This document shows positions 34,224 through 55,500 of a stretch of 64,000 bases of DNA, in pieces (the stretch's first letter is position 1; each line of letters starts with the position of its first letter). The notes below the pieces were generated by a model. It was not told the DNA's origin. It saw only the letters and a program-made list of their open reading frames with translations, and made no database searches. Location: the NCBI GenBank assembly GCA_012862575.1, contig BLSF01000003.1, positions 806,001 through 870,000 of the forward strand. Reading direction: 5' to 3'. Position numbers and translations under genes: made by a program. The stretch comes from Parietichytrium sp. I65-24A. Taxonomy: Eukaryota; Sar; Bigyra; Thraustochytrida; Thraustochytriidae.

Positions 34224-34517
34224 CTTTGCTGCTTATTATGTGAATGTGTGTCTGTGACTGCCTGCTCTGTACGCGTGTGATGTGATTGATATCCGACAAG
34301 AGGAATGGATTCGAGCGCCGAGACGCCTTCGCTGTCTCTCCTCTCCGTTTCCTATCCAAAGCTCCTACGATGAGTTTAGGTCAAAATCAAATCGCCTTTC
34401 TCTTTACTCCTTGTCCTGCTGTTTTCTCTCTTTACTGCTTTTTCTTTTCTGCGCAGCACGCCACTCCGACTGTCGAACGTTTTGGGTCTGCCGAGTCTCC
34501 CTTTCCAACCTCCCAAT

Positions 34518-36255: not shown

Positions 36256-39180
36256 GGGGGGTAAGGGGGTAAGGAGTGGATCAAAAACAGTGTTACAGGC
36301 ATGGCAAAATCGTACCGATCAGCTGTGCACTTCAAAAGCTCAGCTTGTCTTGCAAGTACACAAACGGTTGGTAACTTCCAACTTCTCGCGCGCTTTTGTC
36401 GGAATCAACGCGTACTCAGTAGGCAAGTATTCGGTACAGTTCTCCCAGTCAGAACCAGCACCACCCCGCTTCTGGTGTGATGGCACTTTGACCGCTCGTA
36501 TTCTTTTTCAGAATTCAGAATTCAGAAAACACAAGCAACGCTCCACGCTCAACGCTCATTGCTCTGCTTCCCGCTTCAAATCTCCATGTCTGCGCGCCGA
36601 TCATTCGAAGTTTCATGCAAGCTTACAACTTTTCGAGCCCCGGAAACCGAGTAACTGAACCTTTGCTTGATTCACGTCGGCCCATGTCGTGCCGCCGCAC
36701 TCAAAAGTTGCAAACCAACCAAGAGACTCCTCTGAAGCCGTCCACCGGGCCCCAGCTACCGGACACGGAGTCATCGCGCTCCATTGGAGACCAAAGACGT
36801 CAGCTAAGGCCCAAGCGCAGTGACGCTCGCGTTGTAGATGGTCTTAAGGAGTCTTAATGGAGGCGCAGCGCACCAGACGCGGATTCCGCAGTTCTGCGGA
36901 ATGTAAAAAGAGTTGGATATTGTAGCTTCTCAGCAGCTTTGATTGATGTGAATTGATGCCCCTCCACTCCTCTCCTCACCTCTCCTCCTCACCCTCTCCT
37001 CACAGGCTTTCTTTCAGACTCAACTCCGCTCTTTCCGCCCTCCCAGCATATCTGTCAAGTCGATTGGGAAGAGCGACCCTCCACAGACTCACAGAATAAA
37101 TCACTTGCGCTCTAAGACTCGCTAGCGGAAAATACCTACTAATTGTTGGGGTTTGAATGTTGGCGGTGAAAGCTGGTTGGCAGCCACTCCATCCACTGCA
37201 CACAATTCACAATTCACAGTGAGGTCGTCGTCCCTGGCGGCAAATTGGTACTAGGTTTATTGTTTGTTGCGGCAGCTCGCTCTGTGCTGCACGAGTTTTC
37301 TCGACACGGGGTTGATTAATTTACTGTTATTAAGAAGATCTATTTCCGGGCTCTTTTTCGCGCTTTTCCGCCCGACTTTTTTTGTTCCCCAAATCTCACA
37401 CATCGTCTGCCAGCTGCCAGCTTCATGGGTGGCGGGATAACCCTCTTAGGCTGGCCTACACAAAACACGCAGTCTCGATTGGACCCGGGGAAAACGGGGA
37501 AACCTGGTTTTTGAGTCCGAGCGATTTGCGATGCACGACAAAGATCGAGCACTGGTGGGTGCTATGGCCGGTGCTACACTCAACGCTGTGTGATAAGAGG
37601 TTAATACCGTCTGCCATACACTTGAAACGAGAGTTGTTGTGTGGATTTGTTTCCAGCTATGAATTTCTCCGTGAGAGGGAGTGCACATGTATCGTGCTTC
37701 AAGAAGGTGTGCACCAACCTCTGTGCAGAAGATCAAGAAGATTCGACCTCGTCGTACTGTTTTTTATGTACACGCCGACAAGATTCGCTTGTTTGGAGAC
37801 GAACTTGGAAAAAGGAAAAGATGGTTTTTTAATTTAGAAAGAACAGAGTCTTTCATTCGTATTCGTTAGCGTCCCAGGGTCCCAGGGTCCCGGCAACTCT
37901 AGCGCCGATATGCGCTGGCTTTGCGCGCACCGAAAGCTGCGAGACTTGACAAGCCCCCGAAAGAGCGAGCGTGATTCGCTGCTTCTTCGCAAGATTCGCT
38001 GATTTAGCCGTCTTCCGTTTCCTCGGTCACCTCAGTCTACATAGTCTACATTGGTTGATTGATTGCCCAAGTTCCCAAGTTCAGCGCTTTGCGCTCTTTT
38101 GCGCGAGTGCCAGTGCTTAAAATGTTTAAAATGGCCAGGACTGTTTGACACTGACATCGGCGGTTGAGGTTATTTGAGGATTTTCCAACAGTATCTTGTC
38201 TTCCATGCGACGTGGATGCCGCCACATAATTACACTAGTTGCTGTCGACGTTGGGCCGTTGAGTGCAGCACTATGGTGATATCCTGACCTTGCCACGGTG
38301 GGAGATGTGTAAGTGTGCTCCGTAGCCCACCCTCTCCAGTGAGAATAGGAAGAAAGGAGACGCGAACTTTCGCGTCCGCCCGGACCTGCTCGCAGCATCT
38401 TTTGCTCTTCACGCGTTGTTCGCGCGTCAGGGAAGTAGTACTAGCTAGGTACTCAGTACCGATGTGTAACTTGGTTGAAACAGAGTCACAATTGCTGTAC
38501 AGACTGAGTACTGGTATTTTAAATTAACAGTAAGTGTGCGGGGATCCGAAATGCAGGGACGGTGTCATTTCGAGATAGACTTGAATCAAAAGAAACTGAG
38601 AAAAAGGAAAGTTCTGTTGGTTCTCAAGGAAAGAACTACTTTTATCTCTGTAGAACCCATTTTCAAATTGCTCTCTTAGTTGGCCAGCTTCGACCTGAGT
38701 ATCTTTGCCCAAGTATGCCACGCGGGCACTTGGTGTCATTTGCCGAGTATAGAACTTCTTCTCGGGCATTTTACATTTTGGGAGAACTTTGTGCTAAAAA
38801 AGAAAAGAAAAAGCTCCCAGATGGATTTGGAGCTGCCCTATCCGAGCCTCATATAAGGTGAACTGCAAATGCAATGAATTAACGAGTGACCTGCGCGCGA
38901 AGGCGCAACCCTTAAACACGAAGAAGAGCATCTAAGGCAGGCGCGCTTTGGCGTATTAGATAAGAAGTCTTTCTCAAGGTGGTTTTTGGTTCCAGTCCAG
39001 GATACTGACGGCGGGATCGAGACATTCATTTTCGTGGCTTCGTGTGCCCACCCCCAAGCGCTGGATGGATTGTTACCATCCTCTTTATCAACGGTAAATC
39101 TCGCGGGCGGTCATCTTTCTTTCAGTAAACCTGGGTTGGCTCTGCACTTCTAAAAGGAGGCACGGTTTCAATCTGAACTT

Positions 39181-40115
39181 TCAGGCCCCGGACAAGTCGG
39201 AGTCGCTTGAACCTAAGCCCAAGTATGCGTTTCTCTCATCGTTGGCTCGGATCTCTTTCACGAATATCTCCACGAGATTATAAACGTTTGCGGTAACATC
39301 CTGAATAGATCCTCTCCCTCCAGCCGAGTCCAGCTTCGCAAACTCGGAAAGATCCGCGCCAATTTGAAGACCAAAGAAGACACGCCGATCTCCTTGGGGT
39401 CTGTATCCTCTCTGGCACTGCATGGGAACGAACAGAGTAGACGAATTTTGGTGTGATCGTAAACATAGGTTGTTCGCATCAGGACAGCGCTTTAACGTTC
39501 CACCTCCAGTGCCTGGTGGTGGCTCAATATGCTTCACAACAACGAACACATTGCCCAAGTCGGACGTTTCGGGATGGGCACGCAGAAAGTCGTGTACGTT
39601 GCCACTAGAATAGTCACGGTAAATGCCTTCACGAAGCAGACGTAAGCGGACAGTCGGACGATCGCGAGTTTCGAAGTTATGAACAAAGCCGCGATAAAAA
39701 TCTCTCAGCACGCAAATTGTTTAAAGACGAACGCGTGGAGGAGGCGCAAACAAATATTTGGCACTAGAAACGGTACATTCTCTCCCCCACGCAAAACGAA
39801 ACAAATAAATGAACAAGAGAAGAGCATTTGCGCAAAGTCGTGCATCCGTTTGCACCAGCAATTCCAAGCCCGAGTCGAAAGAGCACCGTTTCATGACCGT
39901 GAAGACCTTAACGGTTGGAAATGAGCTGGTTTTGTCATCGTCTGCGAGGATCCGTTGTAGCGCTGCAAAACTTTTAAGAAGCGCTTCCCCAATCGTTCTA
40001 TTTCGAGCTTTGACTGTATGAGGAGCGCGGGGTCAACCAAATTCTGAGCAATGCAGAGAGGAGAATCCTCTCGTGCGCTCATGGGAAGCTGTGAGTGAAT
40101 AAAGTTCGCTGCCAT
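39181..40115 (-). pseudogene. Decayed minus-strand gene, product unknown
   Basis: An ATG at 40115 opens MAANFIHSQLPMSAREDSPL..VDPALLIQ. Coding character then moves to another frame (RTIGEALLKSFAALQRILAD, then FPTVKVFTVMKRCSFDSG). This same frame meets a TAA near 39725 and continues to a TGA at 39181 through FETRDRPTVRLRLLREGIY, GNVFVVVKHIEPPPG and NVYNLVEIFVKEIRANDERN. So at least one frameshift and one stop break it, unless an undetected short intron explains both. I do not recognise the family. The C-terminal 170 residues are the best preserved part and could be read as a separate short gene only from a non-ATG start. Confidence 0.45.
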
Positions 40116-40814
40116 AGGGTCAGACTCAGGCTATCGCTCGCTTTCGCTGAATGGTTGGTCTTTCAATCAATGTAAAGCTGGTAGGAAAAAGACTGGAAAT
40201 TACAAGTGAGGGGCAGAGATTTAGTGTAGTGTAAATCAGTCAGTACTCAGTACCAGAGTACGCGGAATTCGCCAAATCGTGTAACCACCTCAGCTAACCA
40301 TACTACCTCATTGTGCTAGCAACAATGCCGCGGAGCCCTCCGCGGGCGATTGCTAACTTACGATAAACACGTGATGCTCTCGCGAGACCATACCAGTCAA
40401 CACCATCGGCTATAACTTACCAGCTAGCAAAATCTTCTAATGGGGATACGATTTTAGTTGGGGGAAAGATGGGGAAAGGCTTCCTCTAAACATATTAGCT
40501 AGAAGCAAATAGGGTCAGAAGCCTTCTAATACTAGTAGATTGGTAGGAAAGGTGGGTGCTTTCGTACTACGTTCAGTAGTACAGTGGTATTACACCTGCG
40601 CATGAGCAGTGTGAGTGCACGAGAGCATGAAACTTTGAGCAGCGAATGAGTGAGAGCGCAGTTCATCTTCGCAAGGTGCCCGGAAAAGGCATCTGCTGCG
40701 AAAGGACTAAGAAGGGAGAAGAAGAAGAAGAGGAGAAGGAAGGCCCGAGCGCGAAAGGCTGCTGCGCTGCGTGTTGGAGGTCAGCGGGGCCCGCGAAGGA
40801 GGGCGAGAAGGGAA
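40116..40814. other. Spacer and leader before the sulfotransferase
   Basis: Contains a GTACTCAGTACC palindrome (about 40246) and a purine-rich tract (about 40705-40745). Frames from 40646 and 40650 enter the sulfotransferase region, but only a GTG-start version of the latter is in frame with it. Confidence 0.5.
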
Positions 40815-41996
40815 ATGAAAGCCGGGAAGACGACTATGTCGCGAAGAATGATGGCCGCAATGGCCGCGGGTTCGCTGCTCCTTGTCGCAAAGAACTTGGA
40901 TGAGCTCTGTGGCGCAAGGGGCGATACTTTTGTGAGAAATAGTCTTCGGGAGATGCCAGTCAGAATTGAGGATGGTGAACATGTGCTTTCACAAGTTGAT
41001 GCCAGATTTGTAGAAATAGATGAGGTAGACGGAGAGAGCTTGGCGGAAAGTAACGCGGTTGTTGGTGAGTTGAAAGGGCTGAGGCTCCGAGCCGATCAGA
41101 TCATTGCTGTGAATCTTGGCTTGGCTAAATCCGGCACTACATCATTGCACACAGCTGCAAATGAGGTCGGCGTTCGATCGCAGCACTACACTTGCAAAAT
41201 GTCGGATCCGGATAGCGCGCATAATGCTATTGACGAGCTCAATATGCGAGAGGGATGGGACTCACCGTGCGGGAAAACTTGTGGGAGGTATGCAATTGCA
41301 GTTGCCGAGTCCGGGCACTGGCCTTTCGAGTACACCAAGCCTGCTCTTTTGTCTCAAATCGACTGTGCATCGTCATATAGGTACTACGCGCCACAAATTA
41401 TGCTTGTCGATACCATTCTGGATGGTGTCGGCTACGGCGTCCAGAAAGTCGATGACGAGCCTGTTCACGCTTTTGAATGGTTCAATGCGCATCTCGAGAC
41501 TTCCGGATCAAGTAACTCAATCCTGTACCCGGACGAGGGAAGAAAGCCCCCAGTTGTTTTTGTGTTGACCACTCGCAACGATGAGAAGTGGGCCAACTCC
41601 GTGATGCACTGGAGGGGTCTTGCCAGTCGAATCATCAAGGGTTTGAAGAACCAAAATATGGAGAACGCCACTGATGCGCCGCCAATTCCAAAGAGGCTCA
41701 ATCATACGGCCACCATGGAATGGCTCGTGAAGTTCAAAAACTGGCACGAGAACCGCGTCCGTCAAAAGGTGAGGGATCGGGGCATGCATCTTTTCGAGGT
41801 CAATGTTGATGGTGACCAAGCTGAGCTGTTGCGTAATGTTACCGAGTTTCTTCAGATTATTGGAGGCTCTTCCATCGAGAAGGTAAGCGCCTACAGCTGG
41901 GCCAACCGCAACAAACGCGTCTCACCTTCGCCACCACCACCACAACGCGAGAGCGCTTCTACACCAGCTCATGAGGATAGCAAAGTCCACGCTTAA
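40815..41996 (+). CDS. Golgi-type sulfotransferase family protein
   Basis: A single exon; the first in-frame ATG gives 393 residues. The start is basic followed by a short hydrophobic stretch (MMAAMAAGSLLLVA), as in type II Golgi anchors. A stem follows, then the P-loop-like 5'-phosphosulfate motif GLAKSGTTSL (~100-110) and a 3'-phosphate-binding-like FVLTTRNDEKWANSVMHW (~248-265). C-terminal NHTATMEWLVKFKNWHENRVR is a helical pair with an N-glycan sequon. It resembles the 'sulfotransferase_4' type of PAPS-dependent enzymes; substrate unknown. The tail is Ser/Pro-rich. Directly downstream, tail to tail, is a relic of the transcription-factor gene found intact at 44798 and 47244. Relics of this sulfotransferase lie beside those copies. 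Confidence 0.8.
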   Translation: MKAGKTTMSRRMMAAMAAGSLLLVAKNLDELCGARGDTFVRNSLREMPVRIEDGEHVLSQVDARFVEIDEVDGESLAESNAVVGELKGLRLRADQIIAVNLGLAKSGTTSLHTAANEVGVRSQHYTCKMSDPDSAHNAIDELNMREGWDSPCGKTCGRYAIAVAESGHWPFEYTKPALLSQIDCASSYRYYAPQIMLVDTILDGVGYGVQKVDDEPVHAFEWFNAHLETSGSSNSILYPDEGRKPPVVFVLTTRNDEKWANSVMHWRGLASRIIKGLKNQNMENATDAPPIPKRLNHTATMEWLVKFKNWHENRVRQKVRDRGMHLFEVNVDGDQAELLRNVTEFLQIIGGSSIEKVSAYSWANRNKRVSPSPPPPQRESASTPAHEDSKVHA

Positions 41997-42703
41997 ATGC
42001 GAACATTTGTGTGACAGATATAATACATACGTGCATTTGACAGTCCCTGCCAGTGCTCTGTGATAGCTAGTAGCTGGAGCTGGCAGTGAGCAAGGCGAGA
42101 AATCGATCGTTCGAGCGCAGCAAATGGAACTTTTAGTTTTTCAATGGTCATCAGCTGATAAATTCCAGAATGTTAGTTTTTCAAGCGCTATAGGCGTGCA
42201 TACACACATACACCTTCTATTACGCAAACTCTCAACAAGTCAACGTCTGCTCAAGTGCACAGTTTGGTTTGACTACTCACAGTGGAGGTCGTCAAGCATA
42301 CTTTTAGCCAAAGGCCGGCGGTGGATCGAGTGTTTAGTACAAGTCCTCTTCGTCATCAGATTAGCCCAAACCAAGATAATTTTCAATCTTCATCACTACC
42401 ATCAGATCATTAAAATTTGAAAAAAATCGCCGATAGAGAACTCACTTGAGCAGATCGAAAGCAGGCTGACAGCGAATTCGCTTTTTCAACGGAGTTACCA
42501 AAGTTAGGGCTCAAAGAGCAACGAAAACAAGGGGGGAATTCGATTATCTTTCTTGTTTCGATGTATTTTGCCAATAGATTAAAGACCAAAAATGAAAAAC
42601 ACAAAAGTACCGTAGTTGTTTGTGTAATGTTCTTTTACCTTTTCACCTTCAATTGTTTCTCTTCTTTCCTTTTAATTATTGATCCTACACACTTTTTGCA
42701 AGC
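41997..42703. other. Spacer holding the relic of a duplicated gene
   Basis: Positions 42047-42417 are a decayed copy of the 3' end of the putative transcription-factor gene (separate entry). 42418-42703 is the 3' flank of the PH/PX gene, with nothing further recognised. Confidence 0.6.
42047..42417 (-). pseudogene. Relic of the putative transcription-factor gene (3' end)
   Basis: Aligns along its length with the 3' untranslated region and last codons of the copies at 44798-46036 (-) and 47244-48488 (+). Shared words include GCTCAAGTGCAC, GAATGTTAGTTTTTCAAGCGC-like sequence, ACCATCAGATCAT, and, with the right copy, GTGATAGCTAGTAG and CAGTGAGCAAGGCGAGA. By eye roughly three quarters of bases agree. 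No open frame remains. It lies immediately downstream of, and opposite to, the intact sulfotransferase. Confidence 0.8.
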
Positions 42704-44308
42704 TCAAGCTCGCGAGTAATCCCTCAAGAGTGGATGCTGCGCAGTTGGCAAGAGATTCACGAAGAGGCCCGACGAAAGTGTCTGCAAGGTTGTTTCAGCA
42801 AGCTGGGAAATTTCCAGACGCTCTTCGAATGTCAGTGCCAAGTCCTCGGAGAGCATCTTGTCTATATCAGCAGTGTACTCGATCCGCTTCAAGTTAGCCT
42901 TGAGCAACTTGACACGCGTGCGCATGGACGCGTCAATGGATCTCTCGTCTGGTGGAGTGTAAGGGAAGCCACTCTCTTCGGTGGCATTCTTATGCGTGAG
43001 CAGGAGGGCGAGGATGTCCTGGGCAAAAATGCTGAGGTGGCTGATCTGCGAGTATGAGAGTATGAATTCGTGAACGTTGTCGGAGGACATGACGTCCGGG
43101 TCGGGCGTAAAGCTGAAAAAGGCGCGCACGGCGGAGTTCTCGAAGACCTGGGAGCGCTCACTGTTCTGCACGAGCTCTTTCAGCCAAGCCGAGACGAGGT
43201 CGAGGCGCAGTTCCGCGAGCTGGCGCTTGTTTTTCCATTCCCCTCGAGGGACATCAGGAGGAAATTCGGGAACGAATGCCCGCTGTTTCTCCGTGAGGTG
43301 AAGGCTGGGGGTGTGCAATTGCTTGGCCATGTGGGCGAGTTCAGAGTACCCGACACTGGCCGTCCAAGCAAACCTTGACGCGAAGTTGACGAAGACACTC
43401 ATATTAATGTCGTACTTGTAGGCAACGGTGAAAGTGATCGGGTCCTTGAATTGGCTGACGGTGGGTGGATACACGGCCAAATGTTTGTTGGCGCCGAGTC
43501 TGGTGGTGTGCAGCGGGACCGTGTACCAGTCCATGTTGTCATCGCTGTCTGCGATGGCGCTGATCGGTGTTGAGCATTTGGGACAGTCTCTCTCAGTGCC
43601 GACGGTGATACGCGTGATGGTGAGGCACTCCGCGCATTGTACGGAGATCTTCTTAACCTGCGAGTTGCCATGCCTGGAGGATTTCTCTAGTGAGCGCTTC
43701 ATGTTGTGGAAGGTGATCTTGTCCACATACCCGTCGGCGTAGTGTTTGGTGAGCTCCTTGATGATTTTCGGCATGTTGGTGGCCTTGAGTGCGTTCTGGT
43801 TGGCCAGATATGCGTCCGCTGCGTTCTTGAAGGCGTCCACTAGGCGCTCGTGGTCTTCGGGGTCTGCGAGCTTGAACTGCAGCTTGCATTTCTGCTTGCG
43901 CGAGTACACCTCCACAATCTCGTCGCCGGTTTCGTCATTGATCATGGCTTCCGCGTCCGCTGGGTCGGGCACCACGTTGCCGAGCTCGGGGCCCATTTCC
44001 CCGGTTTCGGGGTCGCGTCCGTAGTACTTGAAGTGCATGCCGTACACCCTGATGACGCAGAGTCGTTTATTGCTCAACCTCTTGCTGTTTCCGCCGCCGA
44101 GGAGGCTCGCAAAGCGCGCGAAGGGGTTGGCACCGGCTTTCCTACTGCGCGAGATCGGAACCGAGTCAAAGAAAGCGTCGTCAAACTCGATAACCATGGG
44201 TTCCTTGGGCTTGGCGAAGGCCTTGGACACCGTGGGCTCATACGCCCGGCGTCCCGCGTCCCACTCGTCCCTCTCGTCGCCGTCCTCGTCATCCGCGCGG
44301 CGCCGCAT
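42704..44308 (-). CDS. PH-like / zinc-ribbon / PX domain protein
   Basis: A single exon; the first in-frame ATG (MRRRADDEDGDERDEW) gives 534 residues. Upstream the frame stays open to 44422 but only with non-ATG starts, so the N-terminus is uncertain. A PH-like domain (LCVIRVYGMHFKYYGRD..EDHERLVDAFKNAAD, ~75-190) is followed by a helical segment (HYADGYVDKITFHNMKRSL). Then come a CAEC..CPKC zinc ribbon (~230-250) and a PX-like domain with AWTASVGYSELAHMAKQL, VPEFPPDVPRG and a closing LRLDLVSAWLKELVQ helix (~290-420). The C-terminal helices are unassigned. The architecture repeats that of the partial gene at the left end of the window. Phosphoinositide binding at endosomal membranes is inferred from PX and PH. 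Confidence 0.78.
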   Translation of the reverse strand: MRRRADDEDGDERDEWDAGRRAYEPTVSKAFAKPKEPMVIEFDDAFFDSVPISRSRKAGANPFARFASLLGGGNSKRLSNKRLCVIRVYGMHFKYYGRDPETGEMGPELGNVVPDPADAEAMINDETGDEIVEVYSRKQKCKLQFKLADPEDHERLVDAFKNAADAYLANQNALKATNMPKIIKELTKHYADGYVDKITFHNMKRSLEKSSRHGNSQVKKISVQCAECLTITRITVGTERDCPKCSTPISAIADSDDNMDWYTVPLHTTRLGANKHLAVYPPTVSQFKDPITFTVAYKYDINMSVFVNFASRFAWTASVGYSELAHMAKQLHTPSLHLTEKQRAFVPEFPPDVPRGEWKNKRQLAELRLDLVSAWLKELVQNSERSQVFENSAVRAFFSFTPDPDVMSSDNVHEFILSYSQISHLSIFAQDILALLLTHKNATEESGFPYTPPDERSIDASMRTRVKLLKANLKRIEYTADIDKMLSEDLALTFEERLEISQLAETTLQTLSSGLFVNLLPTAQHPLLRDYSRA

Positions 44309-44486
44309 CTCGACGTGCTGCTGATCCTCCTTCTCGGCTTTCTCCTCCGAAAACGTTTTGCCACGTGGTGACTGGGCTGCATGTGTCTCTGCAATCTGTG
44401 TTCTCCTTTCCACCTTTTCCACCCCACCTTCCCATAACTAAGGGCTTGTTCAAGTACGGTACTCGTTTCTGCAGAAACACCTCATT

Positions 44487-44560
44487 GCAAAGTCTACGCT
44501 ACAAGTTAAGAATGGTAAAATTGCGAAGATTTGTGTATGCCACCCCACTACGATATTCTT
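44487..44560 (+). pseudogene. Trace of the sulfotransferase 3' end beside the left transcription-factor copy
   Basis: GCAAAGTCTACGCT and, further on, GCGAAGATTTGTGTA match the end of the intact sulfotransferase and its 3' flank (GCAAAGTCCACGCT at 41980 and GCGAACATTTGTGTG at 41999). Order and orientation relative to the transcription-factor copy are the same as at 41-42 kb. Short, so only suggestive. Confidence 0.4.
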
Positions 44561-44797
44561 CATTGGCGTCACAGCCGCTCACCTCTGCTAGTCCTAGCGT
44601 AGTCGGAGCTGAGAGTGAGAAATAGATCGTTCAAGGGCAACAGGTCACGTTAAATTTTTTAGTTTTACAACATTGGTTATCAGTGGATAAAATCGAGAAT
44701 GTTAGTTTTCAAGCGCAATTGGCGTGCAAACACATTGCTTTAGGCAAACTCTCAGCAAGTCAATGTTCGCTCAAGTGCACATTTTGGGTTGACTAGT

Positions 44798-46036
44798 CTA
44801 GTTAGACTGGAGGTTGTCAAGCGGACTTTGGTCCAAGACCAACGGTTGATCAAGTAATAAATCCACTTGGTCATCAGAAAAGTCCAATCCAAGAGAATCT
44901 TCCCAATCGTCGACGCCAGGTAACGGGTTCACCATCAGATCATCAAGTTCGTATGCATCGAGGGACTCGTTCAGTTGCTTTGTAAGCAGAATCGGCTCAA
45001 CGATGATTTCTGAGATGCAAGATATTGAGTCCACGGAGTCGTTCGTTCTCTGCCGTTTCAAAGTCACGGGCTCGGGATCTTCTTTCTTGCTAATGCAAGA
45101 ATTAGACTCCTCGAACAAACTCCGCTTGTTCAACTGAACGTAGGAGTCGGGAGGAGACGAGTAGACCATTTGAGCTGGATTCGACTCAGTCATACAAGGA
45201 GAACTCGTCAAAGAAGCCTCAGGTTCAACGTTTGGGCGTTTCTCAGAACCGTTCACCGCTGATTTCACTGGGCTGCTTAAAATCTCTTTCGATTTCGACA
45301 AAAAGGAGGAGCTTGTTGAAGAAGCCCCAGTTTTCGCGTTTGGAGGACAATCGGAGACGACGACCGAACCGCCAACTGGCGATGGTTTGAGTTGGCTGGC
45401 CTTCTTTTCATAAACGATAGGGAGCTCCGGGTACTTGTGGTGAAACTCCTCCGTTCCAAAAATGTCCTTAAAGGACTTTTCGAAATTCTCAGGAGTGGCA
45501 ATGTCCGCGTCGAAAAGGCGCTGTCCGTGTTTGTCTAAAGCGGCCTTGACTAGGTCTCTGACTCTCGTTCGAGCAGATATTTCTGGCTGACGGTCCTTCT
45601 TCTTAACGTTTTTGCGTTTTGTGAGTAATTCAAAAGGCCTGGTGCGATTGCTCAGACGGATGCCAGGCGCGCTCGCATCAACGCGAATGCAAAATTGGCG
45701 CCGGAGATGTTTCGAAATGAGGTTATCAACCCTGAAACTGACCATCACTGAGTGTGACGACGTTTTGAAGCTCCCTGCCTCTCTCTCATTCAGCACTGTC
45801 AACTTGGCAATCTTCTTTCCATCTCGTTCCGCATCGGCCTCTTGCCTCACCGGGAGCACCTGGTTGCCGGAGATCGCATCGCAGAGCACGTAGCTGAGCG
45901 TCCACGGCCCCGCCTCTTGCGCCGTCTCCCAATTCGCGCACCTCAGCACCAGCCCCGCCATCAACCCCGCCGACATGCCATTCTCATCATTAAAGAACTT
46001 GGTCTCCGGCTCCGCCACCACTTCCAGGCGAAACAT
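44798..46036 (-). CDS. Putative transcription factor, left copy of inverted pair
   Basis: A single exon of 412 residues from MFRLEVVAEPETKFF. The N-terminal ~145 residues look like a beta-sandwich (SHSVMVSFRVDNLIS..QFCIRVDASAPGIRLSNRTRPFELLTKRK). The pattern 'VxF..N..S..F.IRVDA..P....RTRPFELLTKRK' recalls Rel/velvet-type DNA-binding or IPT folds, but I cannot name a family. A conserved helical block (ARTRVRDLVKAALDKHG..ENFEKSFKDIF) follows. The rest is Ser/Pro-rich with a KLKRQR-like basic patch and a strongly acidic, leucine-rich C-terminus (DDWEDSLGLDFSDDQVDLLLDQ) of the activation-domain kind. A transcriptional role is inference. It is almost identical to 47244-48488 in inverted orientation, including the leader and 3' flank. 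Confidence 0.72.
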   Translation of the reverse strand: MFRLEVVAEPETKFFNDENGMSAGLMAGLVLRCANWETAQEAGPWTLSYVLCDAISGNQVLPVRQEADAERDGKKIAKLTVLNEREAGSFKTSSHSVMVSFRVDNLISKHLRRQFCIRVDASAPGIRLSNRTRPFELLTKRKNVKKKDRQPEISARTRVRDLVKAALDKHGQRLFDADIATPENFEKSFKDIFGTEEFHHKYPELPIVYEKKASQLKPSPVGGSVVVSDCPPNAKTGASSTSSSFLSKSKEILSSPVKSAVNGSEKRPNVEPEASLTSSPCMTESNPAQMVYSSPPDSYVQLNKRSLFEESNSCISKKEDPEPVTLKRQRTNDSVDSISCISEIIVEPILLTKQLNESLDAYELDDLMVNPLPGVDDWEDSLGLDFSDDQVDLLLDQPLVLDQSPLDNLQSN

Positions 46037-47243
46037 TTCTCCGCTTCCTTTTTTCTCACGTCCCACTCGCTTCGCCTCTTCCCTTGCACTGCTCTGTCTT
46101 GCGGCGCGGGTGAACGGAACAAGAGTCCGCGGAATGGGCAGCTGCGTGTACGTCCAGTGTTTCCGAGAACGTTTGTGGGGACTGGGCGCCCAGTCTCCAA
46201 ACTCATTCCAGGTTCAAAAGGCTTTCAATGTTCATGCATCGATTGATCAAGATTGATTGAGAATGATTAGTGTCAGACTAAAGAAAGAGCGGTCCGCTAG
46301 GCTGACCTGTGGTGAAGAGTGTGAAGAGTAAAAATTTGACCCTTCACATGACTTCGCTCTCGATTGAAAGACTTTTCATTTCGTCAAGCCGGCTCGAGTC
46401 GATTCATTATGTCCTTGTCCAATGCCCCAATGCAACAGCGCTTGCGGCTTCTCCAGGACGAACGTGCATGTAATGACTCTGAGCAAATGTTTGGAGAGCC
46501 GTGTTACTGGCACTGCCAGGATCTCTTCCCACCATATTGCAAAGTCGGAAGTGCCTCAAATGACTGTGAATTGCAACTTTACGCAAAGTAATGGACCATG
46601 CGTCGCGTTAGACCTATTTTGATGAGCTTTCATCAAAAAATGATGAGCCTCACTATCTTGGGAAACTGAAGCTCGAAGGTGAAAATCGCCTCGCTTGACA
46701 TCGCTTGACCTACTTGACCTGATCCTGCATTCCCATCTGTCTGTCAGAGCACTTTCCTACTTTCCTCATACATTTCAATGGACTCATCATGACCCACTCT
46801 AACATCAATCAATCAAGCTCTTCTCCTGAGGCGGTTTCTCGAACCGGACTCGACCTCCTATCCCAAAGTCTCATCTGCTTACTCTTTACCATAGGCTAGT
46901 TATCGGTAGTGGACCGCTCCTGCTCCTACGCACATGCTCCCTCTCATTCCCTCTCTTCTGTGTCTTGCCTAGAAGTAATAAGGAATCCTCTAGTCAAAAT
47001 AATAATACATTTGAACCTCATTGTTGACCGAGAAAGCCCCTTTGAAAGCTGGAGAAGAGTGTGGAGAGTGTGGAAGACTCAGTCTGTGCAGTCCCCAAAC
47101 GTCCTCGGAGACACTTGACGTACGCGCAGCTGCCCATTGCGCGGACTCTTGTTCGGTTCACCCGCACCACAAGACAGAGCAGCGCGGGAGTCTGCGGGCG
47201 TGCAAGGGAAGAGGCGAGGAAAAAGGAAAAAGGAATCGGAGCA
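46037..47243. other. Spacer between the inverted duplicate genes
   Basis: Both ends (about 46037-46200 and 47075-47243) are matching leader/promoter sequence of the two copies; the right one carries an extra ~18 bp (around GGGAGTCTGCGGGCG). The unique centre (46200-47075) has one small Cys-rich frame, 46409-46591 (+, MSLSNAPMQQRLRLLQDE.., 60 codons), with no recognisable family. Confidence 0.6.
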
Positions 47244-48488
47244 ATGTTTCGCCTGGAAGTGGTGGCGGAGCCGGAGACCAAATTCTTTAATGATGAGAAT
47301 GGCAAGTCGGCGGGGTTGATGGCAGGACTGGTGCTGAGGTGCGCGAATTGGGAGACGGCGCAAGAGGCGGGGCCGTGGACGCTCAGCTACGTGCTCTGCG
47401 ATGCGATCTCCGGCAACCCGGTGCTTCCGGTGAGGCAAGAGGCAGGTGAGGAACGAGATGGAAAGAAGATTGCCAAGTTGACAGTGCTGAATGAGAGAGA
47501 GGCAGGGAGCTTCAAAAAATCGTCACACTCTGTGATGGTGAGATTTAGGGTTGATAATCTCATCTCGAAGCGTTTCGGGCGCCAATTTTGCCTTCGCGTT
47601 GATGCAAGCGCTCCTGGCATCCGTCTGAGCAATCGCACCAGGCCTTTTGAATTACTCACAAAACGCAAGAACGTTACTGGGTCGGACCGTCAGCCAGAAA
47701 TATCTGCTCGAACGAGAGTCAGAGACCTGGTCAAGGCCGCTTTAGACAAACACGGACAGCGCCTTTTCGACGCGGACATTGCCACCCCTGAGAATTTCGA
47801 AAAGTCCTTCAAGGACCTATTCGAGACGGAGGAGTTTCACCACAAATACCCGGAGCTTCCCATCGCTTATTCAAAAAAGGTCAGGCAACTCAAGCCATCG
47901 CCAGTTGGCGGTCCGGACGTTGTCTCGGATTGTCCGCCAAACGCGAAAACTGGGGCTTCTTCAGCAAGTAGCTCCTCTTTGCCGAAATCGAAAGAGATTT
48001 TAAGCAGCCCAAACAAAGCAGCGGCCAATGCTTCTGAGAAACTTGCAAACACCAAAGCTGGGACTTCTTCAACGAGTTCTCCTTGTTTGACTGAGGCAAA
48101 TCCAGCTCAAATGGTCTACTCGTCTCCTCCCGACTCCTACGTTCAGTTGAACAAGCGGAGTTTGCTCGAGGAGTCTAATTCTTGCATTAGCAAGAAAGAA
48201 GATCCCGAGCCCGTGACTTTGAAACGGCAGAGAACGAACGACTCCGTGGACTCAATATCTTGCATCTCAGAAATCATCGTTGAGCCGATTCTGCTTACAA
48301 AGCAACTGAACGAGTCCCTCGATGCATACGAACTTGATGATCTGATGGTGAACCCGTTACCTGGCGTCGACGATTGGGAAGATTCTCTTGGATTGGACTT
48401 TTCTGATGACCAAGTGGATTTACTACTTGATCAACCGTTGGTCTTTGACCAAAGTCTGCTTGACAACCTCCAGTCTAACTCTAGCTAG
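47244..48488 (+). CDS. Putative transcription factor, right copy of inverted pair
   Basis: A single exon of 414 residues, with the same architecture as the minus-strand copy: beta-rich N-terminal domain, helical block, Ser-rich linker and acidic LxxLL-like end. The N-terminal 220 residues and the last ~110 are nearly identical. The linker (~240-300) has diverged, with several substitutions and small indels (ANASEKLANTKAGTSSTSS versus VNGSEKRPNVEPEASLTSS). Both copies are open over full length, so both are probably functional or only recently duplicated. Its 3' flank runs into a relic of a sulfotransferase (48716-48779), the mirror image of the arrangement at 41-42 kb. Confidence 0.72.
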   Translation: MFRLEVVAEPETKFFNDENGKSAGLMAGLVLRCANWETAQEAGPWTLSYVLCDAISGNPVLPVRQEAGEERDGKKIAKLTVLNEREAGSFKKSSHSVMVRFRVDNLISKRFGRQFCLRVDASAPGIRLSNRTRPFELLTKRKNVTGSDRQPEISARTRVRDLVKAALDKHGQRLFDADIATPENFEKSFKDLFETEEFHHKYPELPIAYSKKVRQLKPSPVGGPDVVSDCPPNAKTGASSASSSSLPKSKEILSSPNKAAANASEKLANTKAGTSSTSSPCLTEANPAQMVYSSPPDSYVQLNKRSLLEESNSCISKKEDPEPVTLKRQRTNDSVDSISCISEIIVEPILLTKQLNESLDAYELDDLMVNPLPGVDDWEDSLGLDFSDDQVDLLLDQPLVFDQSLLDNLQSNSS

Positions 48489-48715
48489 ACTAGTCAACCC
48501 AAAATGTGCACTTGAGCGAACATTGACTTGCTGAGAGTTTGCCTAAAGCAATGTGTATGCACGCCAATTGCGCTTGAAAAACTAACATTCTCAATTTTAT
48601 CCACTGATAACCAATGTTGTAAAACTAAAATTAAAGAATTTCCATCTGCTGCGCTGGAACGATCGATATCTCGCCTTGCTCACTGTCAAATCCAACTACT
48701 AGCTATCACGGAGCA

Positions 48716-48779
48716 CTGACAAATCTTCGCACCCAGTTCTCGTGCCATTCCATGGTGACGTGAAGTCTCTTTTGGATGG
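48716..48779 (-). pseudogene. Relic of the sulfotransferase 3' coding end
   Basis: Read on the minus strand it gives IQKRLHVTMEWHENWVRRF, against IPKRLNHTATMEWLVKFKNWHENRVRQK in the intact gene at 40815-41996 (part shown). DNA identity is exact over CACCATGGAATGG and TGGCACGAGAAC; a 21-bp deletion between two TGG triplets explains the gap. The relic then runs into a stop. It is cut short on its upstream side by the inverted-repeat element. Confidence 0.75.
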
Positions 48780-48786
48780 GCTACAT

Positions 48787-49049
48787 GTGGATAACCACGC
48801 CTAATGCGTGGGTTTCCCTTCCCGTGCTCCACCCAATAGCTCCACCCTACCTTCCAATAGGGTTTGTTTTCGCTACACTTGGTCTAATCGGTCTACAACT
48901 AAGCCTAAACATATCTAAACTCTTAGCTATATTGGGTACCGCAGTTGCATTCCGTTATCTACTAACAACGGATATCTCCTTTTCCTCACAAGAAGTGCCA
49001 ATTGACCAACCGCCGAAGGGAAACCCACGCATTAAGCGTGGTTATCCAC
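48787..49049. mobile_element. Short inverted-repeat element (MITE-like) with hairpin ends
   Basis: 34-bp terminal repeats at 48787-48820 and 49016-49049 are inverted and differ at one base. Each contains its own hairpin, CCACGC-(5 nt)-GCGTGG. Weaker inverted similarity (TTTGGAT) extends ~15 bp outward on both sides. The 195-bp centre has no transposase. Size and structure fit a non-autonomous DNA element; hairpin ends also recall IS200/IS605-like elements. Target-site duplication was not clear. It abuts the sulfotransferase relic. Confidence 0.55.
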
Positions 49050-50638
49050 TTCTCCTAATCCAAACAAAGAGTAAAAATTTCTTCTCTGGCACGGAGTGTA
49101 GCGACAAGTTCGGCACTACTCGAATTCTCTAGCAGGCCTACTGATTGATGATCTAAGCAGACGTTTATCGAAAGCAGTTAGTAAGTTTGTTCAAACGCAT
49201 TGCGTTACGAGACGGGCTGCTACGAGACGTGACAGCAACCGACAGTTCTATACACGCATTAACAACAACTAGTCACTTCTCAAGAACCACGTCACATTGG
49301 ACGTCCTCGTTACTCGCTGATTTGCAATACCGGATACTGGTACCGGTACCGGGTACTAGTACCAAGGCCCAGGCAGCCAGAAAACACCTACTGGGCTTAG
49401 AAGTCCCGGGTATTGATGGAGTTCATTCTTTTATTCTTTTTCTTTCTTGGGGTCACCGAAATTGTGGTGACGTCATTAATGACGTCCTTGTATAACTTAG
49501 AGAGAACCATTAATCATCGTACTATGGCACCGACTAACAGCGTGGTAGGAATCTTTAGAGGACAGCATCTCAAGAGCCACAAGAGCCACAAGTGTACGAA
49601 CATTGGCAAATGCGCAGACGAATACTACAGGAAGAACCGGTCAAACTGGGCATTTCTGCCCGTTTTGAGCATGACTTGGATCAGTTTCCAGCGCAGATTC
49701 TGCACAACTTGGAAGATTGCCTATGAGGACGATCTTGGCTCGAGGATGATGCAAACTGCAAGAAGTTCAAAAAACAAGACAGCAGTTTAAAACATTAATG
49801 AAAAGAAACCGTAAGCGATACGATTGTTTGAAGAGCAACATGGATCCCACGAAGGTTCTGGTGTGTTGTACGGTCTAGAGTACCCGAACTTGAATGGCCA
49901 GGGTACCTCTAACGAAATCCTCGGCGGTCCCGCGCTGCGTCGCGATGGAAACTATTGCTTCAAATTAGGTAATGACTCGCACACCCTACCTGGTACTTGG
50001 CCCGGAAGTCGTGGGTTGTTTTGATTTGTTTGAGTTGCACCGTGACCATTTGGGCCAAAACCCTGGATAGGTGGTGGACTCAATTCTAGATGGGGAACCC
50101 CGCGCCTTCATCATGTGATGCCATTCTAGTTGGGAACTGAAATGGCTCTGAGAAGAGAGCATACATCAACACCGCACCATCCCGGTACGTGAAAGTGCAT
50201 ATCGGTACCACATGAGGATGGATATCCGTTCGCCCAAAATGTTCCGAGTCGTGCCAGGGGATTTACTGCCAGTGACACAACACAGAAAAAACGCAGCCTC
50301 AATATAATTTCACCGTGGTCTAGCAGAATAAAATCACAATCGCCGCTCACGAAAAAGAAAAAGCGATCTCAGTCAGAAGCTTTTAGAGTCGCAAAATGTC
50401 GCAAAGGACAAAATCCCAACAAGAAAATCCAAAATTCACCAAGGCAATCAGTTCCAAATCTCGACTACCAATCATATAGCGCTTCTCCGTAGAAGTGGTG
50501 CTGTTCATAGAGTCGTTTCTTCGGAAGCACACTGGCACTGTTTTAAGTAGCTCGTACGTAAGACACGGAATCTAGCTAGCAGTAAGTTTGTATCTCACTT
50601 TCACATTCACCAATGCTTTGAAATTCTGAAATTCTGAA

Positions 50639-51013
50639 TTAATTATTTCTGACAACGACAGATGGTGCTACCAGAGATTCTCTCATCATTATTCTCTCGA
50701 AGGCGCGGAGAGAGCGGATCCACGGCTGCGATTGCATGGTTTGCGCTCCGACCCCAACCATTGATCCGTCGACTGACAACCGCCCTCCATTCCAGTTCAG
50801 AGAGATGTTCGTCAAAAGTTTGGCGCTAAGGCTGAGATTGGGTTTTGCATACTCAGCGATAGTGCATTCTCCAAAATTGCTAAGGTTCGAGAAACGACTT
50901 TGCTGTGTCCTGAGTGATGATGGCATATGCTTTCTCGTAGTCAACATGGCTGTCGAAGGATTTGTTTTTGATTGTGACACTTTCTTGTTGATTGAAAAAA
51001 AAAAAGTAATCAA
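50639..51013 (-). pseudogene. Possible coding remnant, unidentified
   Basis: The minus strand reads a beta-rich stretch (NLSLSAKLLTNISLNWNGG, LSVDGSMVGVGAQTMQSQPW) up to a TAA. An overlapping second frame reads ESVTIKNKSFDSHVDYEKA then YAIITQDTAKSFLEP before a stop. A protein-like signal that switches frame suggests an old gene end, or chance. No family is recognised. A plus-strand ATG frame (50736-51029) also covers the region. Confidence 0.25.
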
Positions 51014-51770
51014 TCAAAATTCATATTGATAAGTCAAACAATCGACTGAAAGAAGTCAGGATCGCAATGATGATCGACTGCAAATAAAAATTTCCGGCGC
51101 GGCCTACTCACCGTATCTCACAGTCCGCACCCTTGGCAATCTCAAAGCATTAAAAGTATTCCGTTCTGCTGGTGCACGTCATGATTCGCTCTGCTGTCCA
51201 CCACGCACTCCAAGTCGACCGAAAGAACAAATATTTTTAAAAAATATTTTGTTTCATTTCCATTTCCATCTTCCCTTTCATCACACAACGGAGCCTGAAC
51301 ACCACCACCCCTACTCGACCTAACTCAATACCCTAAGCCAAACGAAGCACCTCGTCCCACCTCTTACCATCAACTACCGTACCTCAGTAGGACCGGCGCG
51401 GGGAGGAAGGAAGGTGCGAGTGCTGGTGTTTTTCCTAGCTGATTGCGGCGGGAGAGAAACGCAGAGAAACCGAAAAGGAGAAAAGAAAAGAAGAAAGAAA
51501 AAGAGGCACAAGAGACACACTGCGACAGAGAGAGAGAGAGACAAAGAGAGAGAGAGAAAGACAGAGAGAGCCGCTCAGTGTGAGGCTTGCCAAGTGCCAA
51601 GTGCAAGTGTGAGTGAGTGAGTGAGTTAGTGATGCAAAGTGAAGCAATTACTTCAACTTGAGAAGATAGGAGAAGAGAGAGAGAACAGAGCAGCAGCGCG
51701 ACGCAACGCAGGCGTTCTCACAGTCAGAGTACTGCTCGCTGCAGACTTGCTACGAGAGGAAGGGGCTTAT

Positions 51771-51795
51771 CTGAATTCTGAATTCTGAATTCTGC
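51771..51795. repeat. GAATTCTGAA-type short repeat
   Basis: Three tandem TGAATTC units just before the TATA-like motif of the PP2C gene. The same motif recurs in other spacers (about 10225, 36510, 50620, 57345). Confidence 0.8.
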
Positions 51796-51796
51796 T

Positions 51797-51803
51797 TATA
51801 TAT
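51797..51803 (+). promoter_or_regulatory. TATA-like element upstream of the PP2C/CNB/kinase gene
   Basis: TATATAT 380 bp before the ATG, preceded by a GAATTC repeat and followed by a long G-rich leader with GTCA repeats (about 51975-52000). Confidence 0.3.
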
Positions 51804-52176
51804 CCCCTCACGCAAAGGTAGTGTGTTTGTGAGTCTTTGAGCCTGTGAGTCTGGGCAAGCAGCAGCAGTCCGCGCCAGGGTCTAGGAGGTTGTTGTTGCC
51901 ACAACCAACCCCGCGCCAGGCAGCGAGGGAAGAGAGGAAAGGTTCCTGTTGGGTTTGCAACTCAGTGAGTCGTTCAGTCAGTCAGTCAGTCAGTCGGTCA
52001 GAGGCGAGGCGAGGCGAGCGTGGCGGGAGCTCACATGAGCAGGCGAGCGGTTGGTGTCATCGCGAGTGCTTAGTGCTTGAGCGAGTGGGCTTGCGGATTG
52101 GAGTTTGGTGCGTCCAGTGCTGTATCCGTGCCGGCTTCAGTGTGGGGCTCAGTGGATTGGGAGTGTGCCAGGCGAG

Positions 52177-55100
52177 ATGGGGGAACGGGACATGCCATTG
52201 GCCGTGTCCAAGCTCAAGCAGGCGAAACAGAGCGCAGATGAGCTCAACTTGCTGCCAGAGACCTTGGACCAGTGCACGGCACCCGAGCCGGACTTTGAGG
52301 ATGGGCTCACTATCGATGAAAAGTACTTGGCCATCTCCAGACTTGAGGTGAGCGGTAGAACGAGGTCATCGGAGGGCGGCAAGTCGCACAGTATTGAACC
52401 GCTGAGCGGGGCTGCTCTCAAGCTAAACTACGGGTGGGTCACACAAGCAGGGTTCTACCCAGAGGATCTCAACAAGAAAAACCAAGATAATCTTTTGGTA
52501 GCGCCAGACCTTGGTCCGAAGAACAGGGAGATGGCCATTTTCGGGGTTTTCGATGGGCATGGCAAGCATGGCACAGAGTGCTCCACCTTTGCAGTGGACC
52601 GTTTCAGTCAATGCTTGGTGGCGCACAAGCAACTCAAAGATAGCCCCGAGATGGCGATCGAAGACTCTCTTGTTAGGACAAATAAAGATATGCACAAGAT
52701 GAAGAAAAAGCGGAAGGGAACCCCAGGCTGCTTTGACGACACGTTGGCGGGAACCACCGCGATCAACGTGCTCTTTGTGAATGACGAAATTATCGCCGCC
52801 AATGTTGGCGACTCGCGCGCTATCATCGCCTCTGATGTGGACGGCAAGTTGGTTGCACAACCTCTCAGCGCAGATCAGACGCCATACCGCAAGGACGAGC
52901 GTGAGAGATGTAAGGAAGCTGGCGCAGTGGTGATGACCATGGACCAGCTCGAAGGGTATAAGCCATACAGCCCTGATACAGACGAGTGGGGCGATGAAGA
53001 GGATGACGGTGGCGATCCACCTCGTCTCTGGCTGCCAAACAAGGGTTGCCCTGGCGTGGCCTTTACTCGCTCACTAGGAGACGAGATGGCCGAGTCCATC
53101 GGAGTGGTGGCCAACCCGGAATTTCTGCGCCGTAAAATTACCCCTGACGACAGATTCATCGTCATTGCCAGTGACGGCGTGTTTGAGTTTCTTAGTTCCC
53201 AGACTGTGGCAGACATGGTCCAGAAGTTTAGCGATCCTTATGAAGCTGCTCGTGCGCTCGTCGCTGAGTCCTACAAGCTCTGGTTGCATTACGAGGTTCG
53301 GACCGACGATATTACGGCCATTGTAATCTACCTCGATCACCCAGAGAAAGGTTCCGCCAAGTTCAGCTTGGCCAACACAAACAGCAAGATTTCAGGCTCT
53401 TTCCACTCAATATCGCAGCTTCACAAGCTTGAAGAAAGCCGCCCAGTGCGCCGCGAGATGAGCAGAAAGAAAAGGCAAATCATTGAGGCATCCTCAATTG
53501 CCGAGGCTGACGAGAAAGGCGAAGATGATAAGCTGGACAGTGCTTCTTTTCCAGTTAAAGACCCTCACCAGCTCGAGCAGATCAAAGGTGCAATCACAAC
53601 CAACTTTTTGTTTCAGCATCTCAATCCGATGCAGCTTGCAGAGGTACTCAATGCTTTTGAGGTAATTCAGGTAACCGCTGGACAGCGGATCATCGAGCAA
53701 GGGGAAGCGGGTGACAAGTTTTTTGTGGTCGGAAAGGGTGAATTCGACTGCTTTCTCAGGCAGAACGAAGGCGAGGAGGAGAAGAAAATCCTCACGTACG
53801 TTGGTAGGGAAGGCTCCACGCTCGGCAACCCATCATTTGGTGAACTGGCTCTGATGTACTCCAAGCCCCGTGCTGCATCCGTCGTGGCCAAGACTGACGG
53901 TGTGTTGTACGGTCTCAATCGCCGAACCTTCCGGCGGGTTCTCGTCAAGCGCCCAAATAAGGAGCTTATCCAATCGCTGCGCAAGGTGCAGATTCTGGAG
54001 TCCCTGGGCAAGGGACAGCTCCAGCGCCTTGCTGATGCGCTGAGTGAAGTGAAGTTTAACGCCGACGAGCTCATTCTCAGACAAGGTGACATCGGAGACA
54101 CTATGTACATTTTAAAGGAAGGAAGCGCTCGCGTCACCATTTCTGAAAAGATCAAGTCAATCACTTCCAAGATGAAGCGGTCTGGAACACTCAAGAGTCT
54201 AAATTCGCCGTCTCCTGATGGTGAGCAGCTTCCAGATTTTGATCCGAAGGAAGCGACAGAGGTTATGCGCGTTGGTCCCGGCGACTACTTTGGAGAGAAG
54301 GCTCTGCTAAACTCAGAACCACGCGCGGCGAGCGTGATCGCTGTTGGGCCGGTAACAGCGTTTTATGTGTCTCGCAAAGCGTTTGAAGATGTGCTTGGGC
54401 CACTCTCTGACATCATTAACCGACACGGCAAGCGTCGTGAACTTGACGCCTTTGCTGCGTTCCAAATCGAAGAGAATTTGCGACGACTCAAGTTCCCAGC
54501 AAATCTTAAGATCGAGGACGTCGCTACCAAGTACATTGTGAGCTCTACGGAGACTACCTCGATTCGCGTGGCCACTTTGAGCCAGGACAGCAACATGAAG
54601 TTCAGCTTGAAGTCTTTCAATCGTGCCGAGATTGAGGCGCAAAATACAGAGGCAAGGGTTACTCGGGACCGCGAACTTTTGCCTCTAGCTGCAGTGAAGA
54701 GCGACTTCACCGATGAAGACGAGCGAAGCTCATCGGACTTGATTAGCTTTGTGTTTCCCGTTGTCAAGACCTTCATCGGAAAAGAAAGCCTGCATATGGC
54801 TCTGGAAGGGGTCATTACTGGCCCACTTATCGACTTTATGGGATCTGCGCTACCGGCGAACGCCGCGCAATTCGTGATGGCCAACGTGGCGCTCATGATT
54901 CAGTCCATGCACAAAAAGCGCATTCTCATGAGGTCGATCAACCCGTCCACGCTCATGGTAGACTCGGAGGGCTACATCCGACTAGCGGATATGGGCGCAT
55001 CCAAATACATGGTAGATGAATCCGAGCGAGCTTTTACGCTCTGTGGTGACACGTCTTACTTTGCGCCAGAACAAGTCCTCAATAATGGCCATAGCCTGGC

Positions 55101-55500
55101 CGCAGACTTTTGGAGCATGGGTGTGCTTCTGTTTGAAATGCTTGCTGGTAAATTGCCTTACACCGAGGAGGACCCTTTCTCACAGATTGCAAACTTTCAG
55201 CTGAGCGACTTGGCCTTTCCAGAGTCCGTCGGCGGAGCCGCTCGCGACCTAATTCGCCAGCTTATGGAGCCGAAGGTTGCATCGCGTCTTCGAAGTGCCG
55301 AGGAGGTCATGAACCATGACTTTTTCGAGGGCCTAGACTGGGACGCTATGAAGCGCGGTAAAGTTCAGTCGCCGCTGCGCGAGGCCGCAGAGTCTGCCGC
55401 AAAGGAATTACTTGCCGCGCCAACGCCACGCGAGTCGCCCATTGATTCGGGCTCCTTTGTGGGCCAGGTCCCCAGTGGCTCTTGGTTCGAGAACTTTTAA
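52177..55500 (+). CDS. PP2C phosphatase / two cyclic-nucleotide-binding domains / protein-kinase-like domain
   Basis: A single exon; the first in-frame ATG (MGERDMPLAVSKL) gives 1107 residues. PP2C domain (~85-390): FGVFDGHGKHG, ANVGDSRAII, FTRSLGDEMAE and VIASDGVFEF keep the metal-binding aspartates. CNB-A (~480-600) has FGELALMYSKPRAAS and CNB-B (~605-735) FGEKALLNSEPRAAS, both with the Glu and Arg that hold cyclic phosphate. The C-terminal kinase fold (~800-1085) keeps CGDTSYFAPEQVL and DFWSMGVLLFEMLAGK. However, the catalytic loop reads ILMRSINPSTLMV instead of HRDLKPEN and DFG is DMG, and no glycine-rich loop is visible, so it is probably a pseudokinase. The same order exists in plant PP2C/cNMP-binding/kinase proteins. 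It is a likely cyclic-nucleotide-regulated phosphatase. Confidence 0.9.
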   Translation: MGERDMPLAVSKLKQAKQSADELNLLPETLDQCTAPEPDFEDGLTIDEKYLAISRLEVSGRTRSSEGGKSHSIEPLSGAALKLNYGWVTQAGFYPEDLNKKNQDNLLVAPDLGPKNREMAIFGVFDGHGKHGTECSTFAVDRFSQCLVAHKQLKDSPEMAIEDSLVRTNKDMHKMKKKRKGTPGCFDDTLAGTTAINVLFVNDEIIAANVGDSRAIIASDVDGKLVAQPLSADQTPYRKDERERCKEAGAVVMTMDQLEGYKPYSPDTDEWGDEEDDGGDPPRLWLPNKGCPGVAFTRSLGDEMAESIGVVANPEFLRRKITPDDRFIVIASDGVFEFLSSQTVADMVQKFSDPYEAARALVAESYKLWLHYEVRTDDITAIVIYLDHPEKGSAKFSLANTNSKISGSFHSISQLHKLEESRPVRREMSRKKRQIIEASSIAEADEKGEDDKLDSASFPVKDPHQLEQIKGAITTNFLFQHLNPMQLAEVLNAFEVIQVTAGQRIIEQGEAGDKFFVVGKGEFDCFLRQNEGEEEKKILTYVGREGSTLGNPSFGELALMYSKPRAASVVAKTDGVLYGLNRRTFRRVLVKRPNKELIQSLRKVQILESLGKGQLQRLADALSEVKFNADELILRQGDIGDTMYILKEGSARVTISEKIKSITSKMKRSGTLKSLNSPSPDGEQLPDFDPKEATEVMRVGPGDYFGEKALLNSEPRAASVIAVGPVTAFYVSRKAFEDVLGPLSDIINRHGKRRELDAFAAFQIEENLRRLKFPANLKIEDVATKYIVSSTETTSIRVATLSQDSNMKFSLKSFNRAEIEAQNTEARVTRDRELLPLAAVKSDFTDEDERSSSDLISFVFPVVKTFIGKESLHMALEGVITGPLIDFMGSALPANAAQFVMANVALMIQSMHKKRILMRSINPSTLMVDSEGYIRLADMGASKYMVDESERAFTLCGDTSYFAPEQVLNNGHSLAADFWSMGVLLFEMLAGKLPYTEEDPFSQIANFQLSDLAFPESVGGAARDLIRQLMEPKVASRLRSAEEVMNHDFFEGLDWDAMKRGKVQSPLREAAESAAKELLAAPTPRESPIDSGSFVGQVPSGSWFENF

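Follow-up and report, generated by a model that had tools for sequence, protein, structure and literature searches.

How did the junction between two convergent genes come to lie in three places within 10 kb of a thraustochytrid genome? The question is raised by a 64,000-nucleotide stretch of Parietichytrium sp. I65-24A (the window hereafter; positions 806001-870000 of contig C3), in which an intact sulfotransferase gene, STF, and two intact copies of a gene of unrecognised family, T1 and T2, lie among fragments of one another's relatives. An initial annotation had proposed that an ancestral two-gene block was triplicated and that its copies then lost opposite partners. We find that the faint pattern it had picked out is real and that the history behind it is less settled than was stated. 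At a probability of about 0.5, we favor a joint account in which an inverted duplication copied a single STF-T pair, a myosin-gene tail was inserted with repetition of the flank, the second STF copy (STF′) decayed, and ectopic gene conversion overwrote parts of the locus. The genome comprises 42.5 Mb in 172 contigs.

A self-comparison of 40-50 kb of the window yielded three related stretches. Positions 44617-46184 matched 47089-48672 in inverted orientation (90% over 1598 columns), 42048-42384 matched 48378-48721, likewise inverted (76%), and 42097-42384 matched 44617-44902 directly (74%). The three overlap in one STF-T junction, comprising the end of STF, the 3′ flank common to both genes and the end of T. 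As the initial annotation had it, this junction is present in three places (approximately 41954-42410, 44464-44966 and 48330-48780), in the same tail-to-tail order in each, and the matching flanks (F0, F1 and F2; Table 1) run beyond the gene ends.

Table 1. Features of the duplicated locus, in window coordinates.
Feature	Position	Strand	Remarks
Intact sulfotransferase gene STF	40815..41996	+	393 amino acids (aa) from Met at 40815; open frame 40650-41996; Sulfotransfer_4 E 8e-06
Junction flank F0 (3′ flank common to STF and T), beside intact STF	41997..42279		matches flanks at 48.5-48.7 kb (-) and 44.6-44.8 kb; F0/T0 border approximate
T0, fragment of last T codons, frameshifted, with stops	42280..42410	-	abuts myosin-tail insert; ~130 coding bases, border with F0 approximate
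Inserted myosin-tail copy and its 3′ flank	42413..44345	-	parent C74:157196-159425, one stretch absent from window copy; 88% over 1943 columns, then 77% over 66
Headless myosin-tail open reading frame, without motor domain	42704..44308	-	534 aa from first Met; core 436 codons vs parent
Outer flank F1: last codons of STF copy (..CKVYATS, stop) and 3′ flank, strongly diverged	44464..44656	+	44464-44540 score 47, 0/1477 tiles
Inner flank F1, nearly identical to F2	44657..44797		putative conversion tract
T1, intact gene, family unrecognised	44798..46036	-	412 aa; 90% identical to T2
Spacer between head-to-head T genes	46184..47089		0.9 kb
T2, intact gene, family unrecognised	47244..48488	+	414 aa; open frame; copy of T1
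Putative gene-conversion tract common to T2 and T1	48099..48622	+	257-bp identical run 48166-48422
Junction flank F2 (3′ flank of T2 and of lost STF copy)	48489..48735		flank matches
Relic of second STF copy (STF′), PIQKRL-H-VTMEW..HEN	48736..48780	-	DNA alignment vs STF 41682-41753
263-bp element with 35-bp terminal inverted repeats (97%)	48787..49049		adjoins STF′ relic; strongly hairpin-forming

The open frame of STF belongs to the Pfam family Sulfotransfer_4 by a short match (26.3 bits, curated cut-off 22.8), whose best stretch spans residues 155-190; the Met-started protein scored 25.7 bits. Given this family and an N-terminal hydrophobic stretch, from which its placement is deduced, STF is probably a membrane-anchored, Golgi-type sulfotransferase. 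STF itself was the sole match in the genome. A PDB search up to E 1 returned no sulfotransferase and two weak unrelated matches (best E 0.026), a search among phage records gave no match, and a single-sequence structure prediction was uninformative (mean predicted local distance difference test score [pLDDT] 37). Elsewhere in the window, a 939-aa frame at 31416-34232 on the minus strand joins DUF6492 to Sulfotransfer_2, a sulfotransferase family other than that of STF.

At the two other junctions STF has left only traces. The STF′ relic on the right aligned to STF with a local score of 46, reached by none of 974 background tiles (maximum 37), and another scoring gave 44, a value that no shuffle of 48722-48786 attained (0 of 500). 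On the left, 44464-44540 matched the final codons of STF and the adjoining 3′ flank more strongly than any background tile (maximum 35), reading CKVYATS before its stop codon against SKVHA in STF. It is very improbable that these matches arose by chance, even though a protein search (tblastn of STF) listed the right relic at E 1.5 only and the left trace not at all, and 1 of 200 shuffles attained the right score once the search took in all of 48722-49400. Likewise, 3 of 300 shuffles reached the left score against the STF coding region plus 51 bases, with the 3′ flank mostly omitted, compared to 0 of 300 with more flank, so that the coding part of the left trace is marginal by itself. Chance would nevertheless have to explain why both traces beat every tile tried and why both are collinear with independently matched 3′ flanks. 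As the protein search was not significant, the case for the traces rests on the DNA matches and this collinearity.

In a codon alignment of the STF′ relic to STF, set by hand, 8 of 15 codons were identical, 5 differed synonymously and 2 non-synonymously. The gaps (3, 3 and 21 bp) are all in frame, and the differences fall 0/2/5 on the three codon positions (third-position excess, p 0.045, n=7). Small as these numbers are, the synonymous third-position changes (5 of 7 differences) and the in-frame indels hint that the right-hand STF copy was once under coding constraint, as a former working gene would be. In assigning an STF copy to the right block, the initial annotation was right. The relic had been read in frame as TMEW-HENWVR; TMEW..HEN is indeed in frame, but WVR may be 3′ flank instead, 48719-48731 having 13 of 13 bases in common with 44522-44534 (a match that alone has E 0.83). 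When the part of STF before 41682 was sought to the right of the junction, the best score (69) fell inside 31 background scores (53.5 to 89.5). A lenient match of 41594-41643 to 50756-50807 (71%, nominal E 0.003) was dropped, the local search there not being above background. The shortness of the relic and the missing upstream match would suit a right block that never had a working STF and received a truncated STF end along with its T copy. We consider this unlikely, given that the truncated end would have had to acquire synonymous third-position changes without any at first positions, and three gaps that keep the frame.

T1 and T2 constitute a head-to-head inverted duplicate; they were the only two copies of T found in the genome, and a genome search with their spacer found no other copy. 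Non-synonymous divergence (dN) between them is below synonymous divergence (dS; omega 0.36 overall), and both are therefore probably working genes. The name "transcription factor" given to T earlier found no support. T matched no Pfam family and, in a profile search, no PDB chain, both up to E 5; a single-sequence search of the PDB gave two weak matches to protein-glutaminase (E 0.8), and a structure model from a two-sequence alignment was not interpretable (mean pLDDT 37). No DNA-binding domain was recognised in these searches, although T may contain an undescribed one. Relatives of T or STF were also sought in viral contigs, and none was confirmed.

Facing intact STF is the fragment T0, which the initial annotation had regarded as a relic of T. 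Its origin in T stands, with about 130 coding bases interrupted by stops, but no sign of past coding constraint could be found. Compared to T2, T0 shows gaps of 13, 2, 6 and 1 bases and 30 differences over 128 sites, distributed 9/11/10 by codon position (tail distance 0.29); a protein search was not significant (E 2.7). Such a flat pattern would be expected of a piece that never had a coding life of its own.

Between T0 and the left STF trace lies an open frame of 577 codons on which the initial annotation was silent. It is related to the rear of a 1580-aa frame on contig C74 that carries Myosin_head at its front (E 3.5e-159). A Pfam search found no match to the motor domain in the window copy, which, judged by its sequence, is not a full myosin but a detached tail. 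The window and C74 copies of this tail were the only two found in the genome, and a PDB search with it gave one weak match (E 0.69). Since the match between them continues for ~290 bases beyond the stop codon into the 3′ flank, the tail was copied at the DNA level. C74 as an allelic contig was rejected: in a comparison of 38000-52000 with C74:150001-168000, only 42413-44345 matched at length; a pair of short matches (36-50 bp) lay at 51.5 kb. On its left, the insert is joined almost seamlessly to T0, whose last 13 bases (42398-42410) are the same as in T1, with at most 2 bases before the C74 match begins at 42413; on its right, the match ends near 44345. The same junction flank is directly repeated on both sides. 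Another myosin gene is located just outside the window, ~3.3 to 0.2 kb to its left; over residues 22-1004 it shares 44% identity with the C74 myosin.

The initial annotation did not mention signs of gene conversion either. T1 and T2 differ at 136 of 1556 sites, and with these differences permuted, 0 of 10000 permutations reached the observed 257-bp identical run (mean maximum 59). Coding differences number 83 over 855 sites before 48099 and 4 over 380 inside the tract. At 44657/48622 the relatedness of the copies switches sharply: site patterns that unite F0 with F2 or F1 with F2 stand at 31:3 in the outer flank and at 3:46 in the inner flank (Fisher, 5e-16). The switch recurred under three other alignment settings, with outer-flank patterns of 34:5, 20:4 and 30:4 (p 1.2e-15, 3.5e-11 and 5.8e-15). 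The locus thus displays the long, sharp-ended identity tracts of an inverted gene duplicate with conversion, and the pattern points to gene conversion between T1 and T2 as its cause. As F0 and F2 are about equally distant in the outer (0.124) and the inner flank (0.176), the sequence probably passed from T2 to T1.

The inserted myosin tail suggests a further episode. Its core differs from the parent at 47 of 1308 sites (3.6%), spread 14/16/17 over the codon positions of 436 codons, compared to 79 of 270 sites (29%) in the 3′ flank (Fisher, 1e-33). The core carries 30 amino-acid changes, close to the neutral mean of 33.6 (95% 28-39), and a stop-free outcome is not surprising (0.36). Because constraint does not readily explain the flat codon pattern, the best reading is that the core was overwritten by its C74 parent. 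It is conceivable, if rather doubtful, that these 8 kb form a local conversion-prone region in which the T twins overwrite each other. The headless tail would there be an open frame that drifts neutrally and stays readable without selection on its product, being overwritten time and again by its parent. Divergence estimates for the three flanks could be obtained as envisaged (outer-flank Kimura two-parameter [K80] distances F0-F1 0.59, F1-F2 0.55 and F0-F2 0.12, over 79 to 88 sites), but owing to the insert and the signs of conversion, plain dating by divergence is unreliable here.

Based on these results, we suggest that STF and T formed one convergent pair, STF>-<T, in the ancestor, and that an inverted duplication of this pair gave STF>-<T1 and T2>-<STF′, head to head across the 0.9-kb spacer. 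Later, a copy of the myosin-gene tail with its 3′ flank would have been pasted between STF and T1, and in its repair ~0.45 kb of junction sequence, reaching from the final codons of STF to those of T, would have been repeated on both sides. STF and T1 would have stayed whole, leaving a non-working T tail (T0) and an STF tail beside the insert. STF′ may have diverged as a working gene at first and then been deleted down to ~45 recognisable bases. Ectopic conversion would have made T1 and T2 alike in their 3′ part and 3′ flank, with T2 as the probable donor, and overwritten the headless myosin-tail core from the full-length parent on another contig. STF and T1 would then be the original partners; the left side would have lost nothing, and only the right-hand STF copy would have decayed.

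The three whole blocks and reciprocal loss of the initial annotation, which the data do not demonstrate, yield the same map as two blocks plus an insertion, and the two are inseparable without an outgroup. In the three-block history, two STF-T blocks would have stood in direct tandem on the left and a third, inverted, on the right. T would have been lost from the left block and STF from the other two, and the myosin-tail copy would have taken the place of everything between a point within T0 and one within the second STF. We regard this as a serious alternative, albeit a less probable one. Tandem gene duplication is commoner than long flank repeats, and outer F1 stands much farther from both other flanks than these do from each other, as if its block had split first. 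In addition, dS between T1 and T2 rises to 0.41 in parts outside the conversion tract, exceeding the F0-F2 flank distances of 0.12-0.18, although not so clearly the T0-T2 tail distance. On the other hand, three blocks require an additional duplication, and both a T gene and an STF gene would have had to disappear for the most part; only the junction has been found of either. T0, too, bears no sign of coding constraint.

The two-block history would need fewer events, and it would fit both the direct abutment of T0 on the insert and the missing trace of coding constraint in T0. Several points weigh against it. An insertion after the duplication should have left outer F1 nearer to F0 than F2 is, which it is not (K80 0.59 versus 0.12), so that either an earlier split or a faster evolution of F1 is required; with F0 serving STF, F1 may have been free to drift from the insertion onward. 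A 0.45-kb flank repeat around a 1.9-kb filler is long for insertion repair, and 44346-44463 at the right end of the insert has no assigned origin. The third-position test on STF′ is marginal, with seven differences in a hand-set alignment. Finally, little weight can be placed on the flat codon pattern of T0, as the T tail seems weakly constrained in any case: from codon 290 to the end, T1 and T2 show 4 changes with an omega of 0.84.

Next to the STF′ relic lies a 263-bp element whose terminal repeats match only each other in the genome, among the candidates scored, and at which no target-site duplication is visible. Within it, 48842-48885 is a copy (5 of 44 positions mismatched) of a dispersed 44-base repeat, present in 17 places genome-wide within 3 mismatches (reversed control, 0); among five copies read with their flanks, flanking sequence is common only to two copies on contig C4. 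Farther right, a 1139-aa frame (52081-55497, plus strand) combines PP2C, cyclic-nucleotide-binding and protein-kinase domains in one protein; genes for this protein and for the C74 myosin mark the genome as eukaryotic.

When duplication, insertion and gene conversion act together, their product can look like reciprocal gene loss, and the locus illustrates this in compact form. It cautions against using raw divergence to date duplicated flanks, and it presents a testable case in which a neutral gene fragment would be kept open through conversion from its parent.

Parallels exist for each of these processes. In the gene-bearing palindrome P8 of the human Y chromosome, which contains VCY, the arms are kept alike by arm-to-arm gene conversion (PMC6790999). 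The T locus resembles such palindromes in its inverted gene duplicate with a spacer, its signs of inter-arm conversion and its partial arm loss, whereas its arms are only ~1.6 kb long and 90% identical overall, conversion is patchy, and it is not known to lie on a sex chromosome. According to a review (PMC3449122), partial gene duplicates can be held by conversion with their parent. The headless myosin tail is likewise part of its parent, to which its core is much closer than its flank, but it shows no sign of a new function, and the core changes fit neutrality. Double-strand-break repair insertions of 10-1000 bp with flank duplication have been described in rice (Vaughn and Bennetzen 2014, cited in PMC7407515). 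As there, a flank is repeated here beside ectopic filler; here, however, ~0.45 kb of flank accompanies 1.9 kb of filler, and the event itself is inferred. Every process invoked is already known, and the locus represents an ordinary but unusually readable gene-duplication history.

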